Source of the DNA: Thermoplasma sp.
Lineage (GTDB): Archaea; Thermoplasmatota; Thermoplasmata; Thermoplasmatales; Thermoplasmataceae
Length of the DNA stretch: 38,536 bases
Direction of reading: 5' to 3'
Assembly: GCF_023256435.1 (NCBI RefSeq)
Contig: NZ_JAGDXM010000041.1
Span: 1 to 38,536, forward strand
Positions 32,069 to 38,536 of this stretch are shown one piece after another. Every line of letters starts with the position of its first letter. Positions within the stretch are counted from its first letter, which is position 1. Below the pieces are notes generated by a model. That model saw nothing but the letters and a program-made list of their open reading frames with translations. It was not told the DNA's origin and made no database searches. A program made the position numbers and the translations under genes.

Positions 32069-32124
32069 TCTTAGCTTCTGAAGTAAATGGATATTTTAAT
32101 CTAAACATATGGCATAGGGGTTAT

Positions 32125-33024
32125 ATGTATCATTTCAACGTATTTGCCTATGGTGTTGAGGATATACTCCGTGAGATCTCAAAGAAGGGGACGGAGAGCG
32201 ATATAAGACTTTACAATCGAAAGGAAGAGGACGGAGTCATGACGTTCATAGAACCGATAAAATATCCAGATAAGATCTCCTCACTAACCGATTCCATATA
32301 CCCAACGGACATCTTTATCATCAACGGGGACAATCTGGACAAGTACTTTGCGGAGACGGTCATCGCTCTTGATCTGTTCGGCAAGAGAAGAGGTATAATA
32401 GTTGCACAGGAGGATAAGCAGAACACCATAAGGAAGCTCCTGAAGGATACTCAGCTTCAGCCCGAGTTCTTTTCTGGCAGGCCCATGGAGATAATAGATA
32501 AGATAAAGGCCATAAACATAGAAAGAAGTGATCAGGGATCCCTGGTGGTCATCGATCACTACTTCAAGGTTAAGAGCGTTGGCACTGTTGTTCTTGGCTT
32601 TGTTCTATCCGGAAAGATAAAAAAGCATCAGGATCTCTATCTCTCGGAGATAAACAGGCAAGTTCAGATAAGATCAATACAGGTCAACGATGTTGATTTC
32701 GAAGAAGCCGAGGCAGGCACCAGGGTAGGCCTTGCCCTGAAGAACGTTGAGGTCGAGGAACTGTCAAGGGGGATGTTCCTCTCAGATAAGCCCTTTGAAT
32801 ACACCAATCAGGTTGAAGACAATGTTGTATTTCACAAATCACTAAAGGGGAAGGATACGCTCTCTGATCCTTACATATCGGATCTGATGAATTTTGTCAA
32901 ATGCAATGCGGAAGGAGATTCGTACACCACAAGGTTGAAGATACCGATCATAAAGGATTCGCTTATACTTGCCGATCAGAACGGCTTTCCGCGTGTCGTG
33001 GGATACAGCAAGATCAGAAGATAA
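32125..33024 (+). CDS. SelB-like elongation factor paralogue without GTPase motifs (aSelBL-like)
   Basis: A 299-residue protein. Residues from about 135 to the end resemble translation factor beta-barrel domains 2 and 3 (SVGTVVLGFVLSGKIKKHQDLYL, IRSIQVNDVDFEEAEAGTRVGLALK, RGMFLSD). The N-terminal third resembles a GTPase domain in overall pattern but has no GHVDHGKT P-loop, DxxG or NKxD. This fits the archaeal SelB-like family reported to lack catalytic GTPase residues. Its role is unknown, and selenocysteine insertion is unlikely. ATG 32125 follows GGGG by four bases; the ORF-track start is too far upstream and runs through promoter sequence. Confidence 0.7.
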   Translation: MYHFNVFAYGVEDILREISKKGTESDIRLYNRKEEDGVMTFIEPIKYPDKISSLTDSIYPTDIFIINGDNLDKYFAETVIALDLFGKRRGIIVAQEDKQNTIRKLLKDTQLQPEFFSGRPMEIIDKIKAINIERSDQGSLVVIDHYFKVKSVGTVVLGFVLSGKIKKHQDLYLSEINRQVQIRSIQVNDVDFEEAEAGTRVGLALKNVEVEELSRGMFLSDKPFEYTNQVEDNVVFHKSLKGKDTLSDPYISDLMNFVKCNAEGDSYTTRLKIPIIKDSLILADQNGFPRVVGYSKIRR

Positions 33025-33185: not shown

Positions 33186-33896
33186 ATGGATGATAAGGTA
33201 TTCTATGCATTGGTAACAGCGGTAGTCGTGATAGGTGGTATAGGCATAGGCGTTGCCTATTCCTACACAACAAGCCATCCAGTTTCGGTTCCATCAACAG
33301 GCCCGTACTATCTTACGATGGTGATAACGCCATCCAATCCCTATGTCTATAACAAAACCTATGAACACAATCAACCCTCCTACTTCATACTGGCAGCCAA
33401 CAATTCGCTTGAATCTGCTGCAAACATAGTGTTGCCGGCTCACAGGGAGATAGTACTCACAATAATAGATTACGATTCTGGTCCTACCCCGAATATCGGA
33501 AACACTAGCACCTCAAACACAACGATCTTCACCAAAGTTATAGGTACGGTGGGCGGAGTTGAATATCAGTACAATACCACGACTTCACTTGCGAGCTACA
33601 AAGACAACAACACCAGCCTGCTTAAGCCAGTTGTGATAAGTCAGGTAAACTGGTATGGAAATGCATCAGGAGGATACAATATAACGCACACATTCACCAT
33701 ACTCAACAGTGGTCAAGTCATCGTTAACATACCAACATTTGGTGGTACCACAACACTGGCATACCTCTACCTCAACAACACCGGCACATACACGTGGCAG
33801 TGTTATGTCCCGTGCGGCCTCTCAGCTGTTAACGGAGGCTGGAGCGGGGCCATGACCACAGTTGGCTGGATGACCGGTACCGTGGTAGTCGATTAA
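33186..33896 (+). CDS. membrane-anchored cupredoxin-like protein
   Basis: A 236-residue protein with an N-terminal membrane anchor (about 5-27) and an exported, Asn/Thr-rich body with many N-glycosylation sequons. The C-terminal half has a cupredoxin-like order: H168 in ITHTFTI, then TYTWQCYVPCG with C206 and C210, then methionines 223 and 229 before a final GTVVV strand. The C-x3-C-G spacing recalls the CuA domain of oxidase subunit II, but the expected histidine four residues after the second cysteine is alanine. It may carry blue or CuA-like copper, or a degenerate site. The next gene begins 2 bases after its stop, so the three genes are probably one operon. Confidence 0.65.
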   Translation: MDDKVFYALVTAVVVIGGIGIGVAYSYTTSHPVSVPSTGPYYLTMVITPSNPYVYNKTYEHNQPSYFILAANNSLESAANIVLPAHREIVLTIIDYDSGPTPNIGNTSTSNTTIFTKVIGTVGGVEYQYNTTTSLASYKDNNTSLLKPVVISQVNWYGNASGGYNITHTFTILNSGQVIVNIPTFGGTTTLAYLYLNNTGTYTWQCYVPCGLSAVNGGWSGAMTTVGWMTGTVVVD

Positions 33897-33898
33897 GC

Positions 33899-35362
33899 AT
33901 GCAAAATAGATCAATTTTTATATTTCAATTATCCTCTATATTATTATTTTTTCTGGCATTCGCCATATTCTACAACAGGTATATTTTCATAACGAGCGAT
34001 TCGCTTTATCTTTCATTTCTGATCCTCTTGATACCGGCGATCCTTTTTCTATCCACAGAGGCTCTATCAAAATTCTTCAATTCAATAGCCATATACACAG
34101 AAACTTTTTACATGTTCTTTCTGGTTGCAATCCTGTTCTCTTTTTACAGATATCCTATGTTCTGGATTCTGCTGCTTTCTGCCGTGCCTGCAGCCGTCTC
34201 ATACTGGAAGATGCTCGATGGATCTGAGGGCATTCTGATCAGGCTACCGGCATTCATAGGCACAATGATATTCATGATATACCTTGGTGGCCTGATCTCT
34301 ATACCGTTGCCGACTCAGGCTCCGGTGATAATTGAATCGGATGTCAGCGTTTTTAAGGGTCTAGGTATGATACCACTTGGTCTTGATATAGACGGAGTGT
34401 TCATACTATCCCAGAATCTGGACATACTCATAAGTCCATTCATAGAGATCGTTTTCTTTGCGGTGGCCTCGCTCGTATCCGAAAACTATTACCAGATAAT
34501 ATCGTACTCCTCCCGCCACGGTAACACCATTGGATCGGCACTGTCTGGTCTGACAAGTGCCTTCAGCTGCCAGTGTGAGAGCTTTATATCGCTTCTACCG
34601 GCTGTTGCCGCGCTGATAATAGATGTGATACTTATCCCCGTTCTGTTTCTGAGTCTTACCCTTCTCATTCTCACCTACATCTTTGTGTCCAGATACTACA
34701 AATCAGGAAGACGCATAAGGAAATTTTTTGTGATTCCAAACAGAGGATCATATATTCACACGCTGATGCTGGTTGCTGGATCAGTGTTGCTTCCAGTCAT
34801 TCTTGAATACTTAGTTTCACTTGGGCTGGAGAAGAATTTCATATTTTTCTTTATGGGTGGCATGGCCATGGTTCTCTCAGGCTTCATCTTCATTCTTATG
34901 GTTCTGTACTTTATTGATTTCAGTTTCCGCTCCCTGCTGGTTGGTTCGATGCTGTCTCTATCAGGGCTCGCCCTTTCATATGTATGGTTTCTACCTTCAT
35001 TAACATACAAAGCGTACTCTGTTCCGGCTTATTATGCACTCATGATGATCACTGGATATCTGTCCGGTATCGCAATAGGATCAGGCTATCATGTTATGCC
35101 GGATAGAATGAAGTACACATATTTGGAATATGTCACCGTAATTTTCAACGTTATACCTCTGATTATCTTCTATATGTCAGCGATCCTTGAGATACACGTA
35201 TGGAAATTCATGCCCATACTTGATCAGGTATGGTTCAGTCTTGCGCTATGGATCTCCATGCTTCCGCTGATGTGGTATACAACGCATCTTTCACTCAACA
35301 GCTTCGCTGGATCCGATGCTTTTATTGCAAAACAGGTGATCGCCCATGAACATCCTGATTGA
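33899..35362 (+). CDS. polytopic membrane protein with CQC motif, unknown function
   Basis: A 487-residue protein with about twelve hydrophobic segments and no soluble domain. I recognise no family. The notable feature is SAFSCQCESF at about residue 222, a CXC pair at the start of a membrane segment following a loop with HGNTIGSALSGLTS. Histidines near the C-terminus (YHVMPDRM, LEIHVWKF, YTTHLS, HEHPD) could be ligands. It begins two bases after the cupredoxin-like gene and overlaps the ferredoxin gene by 17 bases, so it is probably part of the same membrane complex. A heme or copper role is possible but not shown. Confidence 0.6.
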   Translation: MQNRSIFIFQLSSILLFFLAFAIFYNRYIFITSDSLYLSFLILLIPAILFLSTEALSKFFNSIAIYTETFYMFFLVAILFSFYRYPMFWILLLSAVPAAVSYWKMLDGSEGILIRLPAFIGTMIFMIYLGGLISIPLPTQAPVIIESDVSVFKGLGMIPLGLDIDGVFILSQNLDILISPFIEIVFFAVASLVSENYYQIISYSSRHGNTIGSALSGLTSAFSCQCESFISLLPAVAALIIDVILIPVLFLSLTLLILTYIFVSRYYKSGRRIRKFFVIPNRGSYIHTLMLVAGSVLLPVILEYLVSLGLEKNFIFFFMGGMAMVLSGFIFILMVLYFIDFSFRSLLVGSMLSLSGLALSYVWFLPSLTYKAYSVPAYYALMMITGYLSGIAIGSGYHVMPDRMKYTYLEYVTVIFNVIPLIIFYMSAILEIHVWKFMPILDQVWFSLALWISMLPLMWYTTHLSLNSFAGSDAFIAKQVIAHEHPD

Positions 35363-37268
35363 TCTGGGCATAGAGCTTTCGATGTCTCTCTTCTTCTTCT
35401 ATCTATTTTACAGGATGGCGAAGAAGACCACAAGCGGTGTCCTCGAAATATTCCTGGAAGCAATGATGCTGTCCATGTTCGCCGGCCTCACAATATATTA
35501 TCAGTGGCCGATAACATTCTTAACAGCCTCCGCAGCTGTTGATTCACCCATGGTCATCATGGGGGTCGCAGCCGTATGGGCCTATTCTAAAAGATATTCC
35601 ACCATAACCCTCACAAGATACCCCGCATTCATAACTCTTCTGATCGCTAACGAGGTTCTTATGGCGTACTTTCTTATGATCGTAACGTACCCGAATCTCT
35701 CCGGATACGGATCCTTCTATGTTCTTTCCCACGCCATAAGCAGTTATCTCTTCGTTCTGTCCATGGAGATAGAGATGATCCTTTCCATAATTTTCCTTGA
35801 AACGGATCGGATCAAGAGGATAATCTTTTCTGGCATCGCGTTCTCAGGCATGTTCAATCCATTCATACTGCCTGGCAGAATCTTTCCCATTTACGGAACA
35901 GTGTATATCGCCATTATCATGGTCGTATTCATGGCCATACTCTTCGAATTCATCGCCCTAAAATTCGATACGATGAATCATTTCAGAATCACTATAATAA
36001 CGATCTTTTTCGGGCTCATGGCGTTTTCATCCTTAGGCCTGTTTCTGTCCCTTATATTGAATTCCCACATCTTCCTGATTATTTTCGGCATTTCAATGCT
36101 TGCGCAGATGGCATTCTATTTCCATTATCTCTTTGCCCCGGATAAAAGCAAAGGCAGCATTGGCTGGTCCAACAACAGATACCATATGTTCTATGTGCTT
36201 TTGTTCTCGTTCGTTGCCGAGTGGTTCATTTCCGCTACTCTTGACTCCATCCTTGGAGGGGTTCATGGTGTTCAGGCATTCCTGAACTCATTCGGCACTG
36301 GCACCGGTGCCGGAATAGTTCAGTCTATATTCAACGTTATACTCATCTTCGGTTCTGTTACAAATTCATACGTATTTCTAATAATAATGGGAATCGAAAT
36401 GGCTTCACTGGTCATCATACGCATCGGCAGGCTAAGATGGAGAGAGAAGAGATGGAATTTGACATTCGCACTGATAGCGTATGCTCTGTACACCGTTTAT
36501 TTTCCCAATTTTGTCGATCCCAAATATTATGAGACGATCCCACTCTGGGGTAATATTGGCAGTCTTGGTCCAGTATATCCTGACATACTGGCCGCTCTCA
36601 TAGGCAGCTACGCGCTCTATGCTGTTCTTGCGCTTTTGTTTGGAAGAAGGAGCTACTGCAGCACCCTATGTCCTTCTGCGGTCATGTATGGCGGTACGCT
36701 AGGACAGGCCATGATAAAGTACAATTATTCTGCTCCCGCCAGCAGGAAACATATAGGCAGCAAGTTCAAGGAGTCGCTGTACCCCGTCATCGGATCTTCA
36801 TGGATATTGATACTCATAGCAGCTTATCTCTCATATCTCTCAAGCACAGGTTCGCATAACTTCGATCTGTTTGGAGTGGACCCAGCAATTCTTTATTCAG
36901 TGGCTGTATGGAACGTCTTGTGGTACGTATTCTTCATGAGCATACCAATTGTGGGCATGAGTCCATGCAGGAGATACGGCTGGTGCACCACAGGAACATT
37001 CGTTGGGTTTTTCAGTAAAATTGGATTTTTCAGGCTCAAGGTACATGATCCATCCCAGTGCGTCAGATGCGAAACGAAGGCCTGCGTCACTGCATGCGAA
37101 GTTGGGGCTGGGGATCTGGCCGGGCAGTTCATAAAGCAGGGCTATTTCAAGAGTTCTAAGTGTGTTGGTTCAGGATCGTGCGTACTCGCATGCCCATACG
37201 ATAACATCTACTTTTATGATGTAAGAAATGCCATGCATGACTTCATAAAGAAATTCAGGAAAAAGTAG
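35346..37268 (+). CDS. polytopic membrane iron-sulfur protein (NapH/CcoG-like C-terminus)
   Basis: A 640-residue protein. The first 420 residues are about ten membrane segments of unknown type. The C-terminal third resembles NapH/CcoG-type membrane ferredoxins: RRSYCSTLCPSAV near 437, SPCRRYGWC near 541, then two cluster motifs, CVRCETKACVTAC (CX2CX4CX3C, about 572-584) and CVGSGSCVLACP (about 606-617), where only three cysteines remain. Such proteins pass electrons between quinol and extracytoplasmic or cytoplasmic carriers. It is the last gene of the cluster, and its overlap with the preceding gene implies coupling. The fusion of a long N-terminal membrane region to this module is unusual. 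Confidence 0.7.
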   Translation: MNILIDLGIELSMSLFFFYLFYRMAKKTTSGVLEIFLEAMMLSMFAGLTIYYQWPITFLTASAAVDSPMVIMGVAAVWAYSKRYSTITLTRYPAFITLLIANEVLMAYFLMIVTYPNLSGYGSFYVLSHAISSYLFVLSMEIEMILSIIFLETDRIKRIIFSGIAFSGMFNPFILPGRIFPIYGTVYIAIIMVVFMAILFEFIALKFDTMNHFRITIITIFFGLMAFSSLGLFLSLILNSHIFLIIFGISMLAQMAFYFHYLFAPDKSKGSIGWSNNRYHMFYVLLFSFVAEWFISATLDSILGGVHGVQAFLNSFGTGTGAGIVQSIFNVILIFGSVTNSYVFLIIMGIEMASLVIIRIGRLRWREKRWNLTFALIAYALYTVYFPNFVDPKYYETIPLWGNIGSLGPVYPDILAALIGSYALYAVLALLFGRRSYCSTLCPSAVMYGGTLGQAMIKYNYSAPASRKHIGSKFKESLYPVIGSSWILILIAAYLSYLSSTGSHNFDLFGVDPAILYSVAVWNVLWYVFFMSIPIVGMSPCRRYGWCTTGTFVGFFSKIGFFRLKVHDPSQCVRCETKACVTACEVGAGDLAGQFIKQGYFKSSKCVGSGSCVLACPYDNIYFYDVRNAMHDFIKKFRKK

Positions 37269-38003: not shown

Positions 38004-38536
38004 TTGAAAGCAAACAGTCCATCGATAGAAGCTATTATAGAAGTGGAGAGGGAAGACTGCTGGGTCACGAATCTTGTCCTGGATAGGGATCCCAAAGCTG
38101 TGATAGAGAGGCTTCGCATAGGCGAAAACACAACGATACACCTAGTAAAGCCGTCTATAGATCGACGTACGCTCTTCAATGAGATAAAAAAATATCCTGG
38201 TTATGTCCTGAAGGCAAACCTGAGCGGCAAAGATTCCATATGGGCTGAGGGAAAAAGCTGTTCGTCCTGCCGCATCCTTGAATCGTTTAATCTGATGGTG
38301 ATGGGTGGAAAATCCATAGGTTTTGATAAGGTCAGATACAGGATAATCGCCCCTACAAAAGCCGAATTCAATCGGGCGCTCAAAAAATTGAAGGATGAAG
38401 AGCTGAACGCTGTTGTTATCACGACGAACGAGTACTCAAAGAATGATCTCACGCCCAGAGAAAGGGAGGTTATAATGAGCGCCCTTAAGCTTGGATATTT
38501 TTATATCGATAGGCAGATCTCCATGAAGGATCTGGC
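38004..38536 (+). CDS. HTH_10 (Bat-type) transcriptional regulator, truncated by window end
   Basis: At least 177 residues, running off the right edge; absent from the ORF track. From TTG 38004 the frame reads LKANSPSIEAIIEVEREDCW, continues through a ligand-binding-like region with CSSC at about residues 85-88, and ends with LTPREREVIMSALKLGYFYID. That is the start of the HTH_10 domain of bacterio-opsin activator-like proteins. Upstream the frame is closed by TAA at 37992, so TTG is the only start near the TATA element. It may regulate the adjacent crotonase-like gene. Confidence 0.75.
   Translation, partial: MKANSPSIEAIIEVEREDCWVTNLVLDRDPKAVIERLRIGENTTIHLVKPSIDRRTLFNEIKKYPGYVLKANLSGKDSIWAEGKSCSSCRILESFNLMVMGGKSIGFDKVRYRIIAPTKAEFNRALKKLKDEELNAVVITTNEYSKNDLTPREREVIMSALKLGYFYIDRQISMKDL

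Follow-up and report, generated by a model that had tools for sequence, protein, structure and literature searches.

The 38,536-nucleotide window analysed here (the whole stretch studied, contig NZ_JAGDXM010000041.1 of a Thermoplasma sp. genome) carries three consecutive open reading frames (ORF1, ORF2 and ORF3; Table 1) that we read, tentatively and at a little under an even chance for the reading as a whole, as a carrier of the Rieske/cytochrome b chain (ORF1) and two copper-handling assembly factors (ORF2 and ORF3). That ORF1 acts with the Rieske/cytochrome b complex as a substitute for cytochrome c appears probable to us, and a role of ORF2 and ORF3 in copper reduction and insertion, drawn by analogy, seems evenly poised. 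All three genes were confirmed on the forward strand, and the tight spacing described by the original prediction was borne out by a 2-bp gap (ORF1-ORF2) and a 17-bp overlap (ORF2-ORF3), which suggest co-transcription. Since four other Thermoplasma genomes carry homologues in this arrangement (73-100% identity for ORF1, 43-97% for ORF2 and 58-98% for ORF3), we regard the three as real genes; the gene order is kept in 5/5 Thermoplasma genomes examined.

ORF1, foretold as an exported copper-like carrier, possesses a single N-terminal transmembrane segment and, in its AlphaFold2 model (predicted local distance difference test, pLDDT, 79.6; predicted template modelling score, pTM, 0.75), a cupredoxin fold. 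Foldseek matched this model to 136 PDB chains at E <= 0.001 (cupredoxins including rusticyanin, AcoP, CotA and nitrosocyanin), and VIA-align gave Z up to 8.9 against cupredoxins. The window protein matched no Pfam family. The nine best PDB matches of a profile of 30 homologues were all CuA domains of haem-copper oxidase subunit II (COX2), weak but consistent (E 0.017-0.034); a single-sequence match to the thioesterase SP_1851 (E 0.013) was gone with the profile and is taken as chance. Five predicted copper ligands (H168, C206, C210, M223 and M229) are invariant in 30/30 family sequences, and the H-C-C columns align with the CuA ligands of the Thermus ba3 oxidase in the profile alignment. In the same 30 sequences no conserved histidine follows C210 and no glutamate stands at the C-x-E-x-C position. 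Because the second CuA histidine and the glutamate are thus missing, whereas the COX2 proteins of related genomes retain C-x-E-x-C-x3-H-x2-M, ORF1 is, by its predicted His-Cys-Cys plus two Met, a CuA relative with an altered ligand set, for which we infer copper occupancy. A type 1 blue copper protein was ruled out on the ligands (second His missing, second Cys present).

In relatives, ORF1 lies directly 5' of the Rieske and then the cytochrome b gene. Outside Thermoplasma, 28 of the 65 ORF1-family places (27/42 genomes) have a cytochrome b gene no more than 2.3 kb away (chance expectation ~0.65% per place), the intervening gene is Rieske wherever examined, and the order ORF1-Rieske-cytochrome b-ORF2 recurs at ten loci. 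In the window genome the Rieske-cytochrome b pair follows ~2 kb downstream of ORF3, beyond the window; genes for an enoyl-CoA hydratase-like protein, an HTH_10 regulator and YceI lie in between, and this block is common to 5/5 Thermoplasma genomes. This linkage was missed by the original prediction, whose respiratory context is supported. Its single three-protein unit survives in part: the adjacency holds in 5/5 Thermoplasma genomes, but the three genes do not make up a unit on their own. One further genome (L092/L136) has the triple with Rieske-cytochrome b inserted, and otherwise it is split, ORF1 being found with Rieske-cytochrome b, ORF2 in Rieske-cytochrome b or oxidase operons, and ORF3 near cytochrome bc, oxidase or other genes. 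Judged by these neighbourhoods, the conserved partner is the Rieske/cytochrome b complex, and from the gene order we infer that ORF1 takes electrons from it. The Thermoplasmatales, to our knowledge, have no cytochrome c. At L095:6385-7602 (also in G158, G181 and G189) ORF1 is doubled into a two-domain cupredoxin directly 5' of Rieske-cytochrome b.

Haem-copper oxidase subunit I (COX1) was found in 0/5 Thermoplasma genomes, as against 53/61 genomes of the family, and cytochrome bd is present in Thermoplasma. As the genus retains ORF1-3 without COX1, these genes are not kept for a haem-copper oxidase. Elemental sulfur is listed as an acceptor for T. acidophilum under anaerobic conditions (review PMC8790237).

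The large polytopic protein with a possible metal motif corresponds to ORF2, with ~13-14 transmembrane segments and a family alignment in which C224-Q225-C226-E227, N196, W363, M382 and E410 are invariant. Its predicted model is fair (pLDDT 76.7, pTM 0.74) and, taken with the charge pattern (16 Lys/Arg and 8 Asp/Glu inside, 6 Lys/Arg and 11 Asp/Glu outside), would place the CQCE motif mid-membrane, at a break of the seventh helix where local pLDDT is low. The Cys, Glu and Met residues, as invariant intramembrane candidates, would suit soft-metal binding. ORF2 matched neither Pfam nor NCBIfam at E <= 1, its profile nothing in the PDB at E <= 10, and its model nothing by Foldseek at E <= 0.001; the best VIA-align result (Z 10.4 over only 119 residues of a transhydrogenase) is uninformative for a helical bundle, and a distant structural relationship may exist. 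No invariant histidine and no predicted redox cofactor emerged from the alignment, and a haem A synthase or other haem protein is unlikely because that histidine is lacking. A pattern scan of ~85,000 species genomes, which demands SCQCE and may let divergent members escape, recovered 38 loci, all in Thermoplasmatales or unnamed Thermoplasmata, and none was found in the viral contigs scanned.

The ORF2 tree has two supported halves (several branches are long and the finer branching is uncertain): one comprises the ORF1-Rieske-cytochrome b-ORF2 operons, within which Thermoplasma nests (100/98), and the other the COX2-COX1-cupredoxin-UbiA-ORF2 operons and the Ferroplasma/Acidiplasma type. With a paralogue located in this haem-copper oxidase operon, ORF2 mostly follows copper proteins. 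A P1B-type metal ATPase that has a YHS domain at its N-terminus stands convergently beside ORF2 at L093:1801-3861 and L129:8554-10611, and a gene of the same or similar length adjoins it at L130-L132. The copies at L149, L154, L159 and L114 have no copper gene near; their neighbours encode VIT-like proteins, FAA hydrolase and HerA-like ATPases.

ORF3, rightly anticipated as a polytopic iron-sulfur protein, has ~16 transmembrane segments and, at its C-terminus, a ferredoxin domain of the two-cluster kind. Eleven cysteines are invariant in 24 sequences; as the middle Cys is missing from the second ferredoxin motif, one 4Fe-4S and one 3Fe-4S (or unusual) cluster are predicted. Residues 416-622 match NapH (TIGR02163; 36 bits, E 5e-9) without reaching the curated cut-off of 213. 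Columns in which 90% or more of the 24 sequences agree contain 13 Met versus 3.8 expected (binomial P ~1e-4, relatedness ignored), four Glu and no His; aligned cytochrome b and COX1 proteins of these loci have no Met excess. An MxxEM motif is repeated in ORF3, from which we do not claim an internal duplication. Stand-alone relatives (~300 amino acids) of the N-terminal Met/Glu domain lie beside an ORF3 copy at L108:7425-8330, L106:5330-6196, L115:5601-6500 and L092:779-1687.

Within the class sample, ORF3 was found in families f1, f11 and f12. Genomes possessing it encode cytochrome b in 39/41 cases and COX1 in 34/41 (hand-counted from tables and phylogenetically clumped). At L083, in another family, ORF3 is directly upstream in the order ORF3-Rieske-cytochrome b-COX1-COX2, and families f24/f25 have COX1 with ORF3 missing. 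A role of ORF3 as a dedicated COX1 factor finds no support, given these two families and the Thermoplasma genomes that have ORF3 without COX1.

We propose that the cassette would form part of a quinol-oxidising chain devoid of cytochrome c, in which ORF1, a membrane-tethered and outward-facing CuA-derived cupredoxin, would be reduced by the Rieske/cytochrome b complex encoded close by, and ORF2 and ORF3, as accessory membrane proteins, would supply and insert its copper. In ORF3 the cytoplasmic iron-sulfur module would turn Cu(II) into Cu(I) and the membrane part, with its Met/Glu lining, could act as the Cu(I) conduit; ORF2 may relay Cu(I) outward via the intramembrane CQC site. The assignment of copper reduction and insertion follows the analogy with CcoG, an iron-sulfur membrane protein encoded next to cbb3 genes that is a cupric reductase (PMC7558416). 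It is also suggested because the ORF2 paralogues go with copper proteins of two kinds and hold invariant Cys/Glu/Met, because a metal ATPase adjoins ORF2 in some genomes, and because ORF3 joins a reductase-like iron-sulfur module to conserved membrane Met/Glu. The Met/Glu/Cys conservation seems to fit copper handling no worse than quinone chemistry. A bolder version, which we consider doubtful, would give ORF1 a natural CuA-derived centre in which Met, in place of the exposed His, keeps it working at pH 1-2, and would make it the cytochrome-c1/c substitute of a Rieske/cytochrome b complex. ORF2 and ORF3 would then be an archaeal route devoted to copper insertion, made up of a cupric reductase of the iron-sulfur type, whose path through the membrane is lined by Met, and of a CQC relay.

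A number of observations weigh against the copper-handling proposal. NapH, the nearest named family to ORF3, moves electrons from quinol, and the conserved ORF3 methionines could serve packing or quinone binding. ORF3 is no general copper-enzyme factor, because cytochrome b tracked it slightly better than COX1 and f24/f25 have COX1 without it. Some ORF2 copies (L149, L154 and L159) are distant from copper genes, and in G082 (L099, 5662-9744) a frame break divides ORF3 and the 5' part of ORF2 is broken with ORF1 intact, which may reflect decay or sequencing errors. The Rieske-cytochrome b locus L164 of G067 (likely a cultured Cuniculiplasma genome) has no ORF1 gene, so the carrier proposal does not cover all members.

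The main rival to a copper-handling role is that ORF2 and ORF3 are electron-transfer subunits. In its full form ORF1-3 would be structural subunits of one membrane oxidoreductase, perhaps docked on Rieske/cytochrome b, with an electron path through cytoplasmic iron-sulfur centres, quinone and outer copper. The close spacing in Thermoplasma, the NapH-like C-terminal part of ORF3, the L083 arrangement and the joint occurrence of ORF3 with cytochrome b all agree with it, but the triple is not kept as a unit outside the genus, ORF2 offers neither invariant His nor predicted redox cofactor, and its paralogue sits in the operon of another complex; we hold it to be rather improbable. It is unlikely, too, that ORF1 is a respiratory carrier, ORF2 a membrane factor concerned with lipid, haem or the assembly of subunits rather than with copper, and ORF3 a ferredoxin:quinone or quinol oxidoreductase that works on its own. 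In the oxidase operon ORF2 does have UbiA, of the haem O synthase type, as its neighbour, some of its copies stand apart from copper genes, and ORF3 is frequently alone in other families; yet the invariant His that haem would call for is missing, Thermoplasma keeps ORF2 without the oxidase that UbiA would serve, and invariant intramembrane Cys/Glu/Met would suit a soft metal. A decaying relic of a haem-copper oxidase lost in Thermoplasma, to which the missing COX1, the cytochrome bd and the G082 frame breaks could point, is very improbable, for ORF1 is highly conserved within the genus, ORF2 and ORF3 are open in 4/5 genomes with all motif residues retained, and the breaks are possibly sequencing errors.

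Table 1. Features of the cassette and its surroundings (positions are those of the contig; the window ends at 38,536).
Feature	Position	Strand	Remarks
ORF1, 236 amino acids	33186..33896	+	extracellular cupredoxin with N-terminal membrane anchor; CuA-like (COX2-related) family
ORF1 predicted copper ligands	H168 33687-33689; C206 33801-33803; C210 33813-33815; M223 33852-33854; M229 33870-33872	+	30-sequence alignment
ORF2, 487 amino acids	33899..35362	+	13-14 transmembrane segments; unnamed family
ORF2 C224-Q225-C226-E227	34568..34579	+	invariant; at break of seventh membrane helix in model
ORF3, 640 amino acids	35346..37268	+	Met/Glu-conserved polytopic domain, then NapH/CcoG-like iron-sulfur module
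ORF3 C438-x3-C442 pair	36657..36671	+	membrane boundary; invariant in 24 sequences
ORF3 C541-x5-C547 pair	36966..36986	+	invariant in 24 sequences
ORF3 ferredoxin domain	37059..37193	+	C572-x2-C575-x4-C580-x3-C584 and C606-x5-C612-x3-C616
HTH_10 regulator	38004..38536	+	extends past window end
YceI gene	38571-39155	-	same contig, beyond window
Rieske gene	39381-40106	+	same contig, beyond window
Cytochrome b gene	40087-41730	+	same contig, beyond window

Among the neighbouring genes, the HTH_10 regulator (beside ORF3 in Thermoplasma and Ferroplasma/Acidiplasma, near ORF1 elsewhere) is a candidate regulator. Directly upstream of ORF1, positions 32083-33024 encode an EF-Tu domain 2 protein with no GTPase domain match, and a gene of like size and strand precedes ORF1 in the other Thermoplasma genomes. 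Past the window, the same contig (G000:C4:44533-48049) holds a second Rieske gene and a shorter cytochrome b (390 amino acids), preceded by TatC/TatA-looking genes on the opposite strand.

The exit of electrons from complex III in Thermoplasmatales has been called unresolved for Cuniculiplasma, where the authors could not assign the complex III-to-IV carrier of strain PM4 (PMC5155288), and the present analysis names a specific, testable candidate with an unusual predicted copper ligand set. It also brings to attention two linked membrane protein families (ORF2 and ORF3) without assigned function, and raises the question of which electron acceptor ORF1 has in Thermoplasma, given cytochrome bd and no haem-copper oxidase. 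Cupredoxins adjoining complex III were already known from other Thermoplasmata; we found no paper in the open-access literature on the ORF1 ligand set or on ORF2/ORF3, and it is these that appear to be new.

Compared with known systems, ORF1 shares with the CuA domain of COX2 (PF00116; Thermus ba3, 2CUA) the cupredoxin fold, the first His, C-x3-C-G and the terminal Met-x-G, but differs by the missing second His and the missing Glu between the cysteines, by an additional invariant Met (M223) with a longer ligand loop, and by the absence of the partner COX1 in Thermoplasma. The blue copper proteins rusticyanin, sulfocyanin and AcoP have in common with it the fold and the respiratory context of acidophiles, though their type 1 sites are His-Cys-His-Met and ORF1 has no second His. 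In the Angelarchaeales a cupredoxin gene 5' of Rieske-cytochrome b, likewise without cytochrome c, has been published (PMC9038741); theirs is a one-domain plastocyanin-like protein, whereas ORF1 is CuA-like with its own ligands and is accompanied by ORF2. The Lutacidiplasmatales possess a complex III/IV/cupredoxin cluster that includes membrane proteins of no known identity (PMC9287336). NapH/MauN and CcoG/RdxA resemble ORF3 in part, by a membrane CxxxC followed by a two-cluster ferredoxin domain; CcoG is a cupric reductase encoded beside oxidase genes (PMC7558416). ORF3 departs from both in an N-terminal extension of ~400 residues that holds invariant Met/Glu, in having one CxxxC(P) only plus a Cx5C, and in a second ferredoxin motif that is one Cys short.

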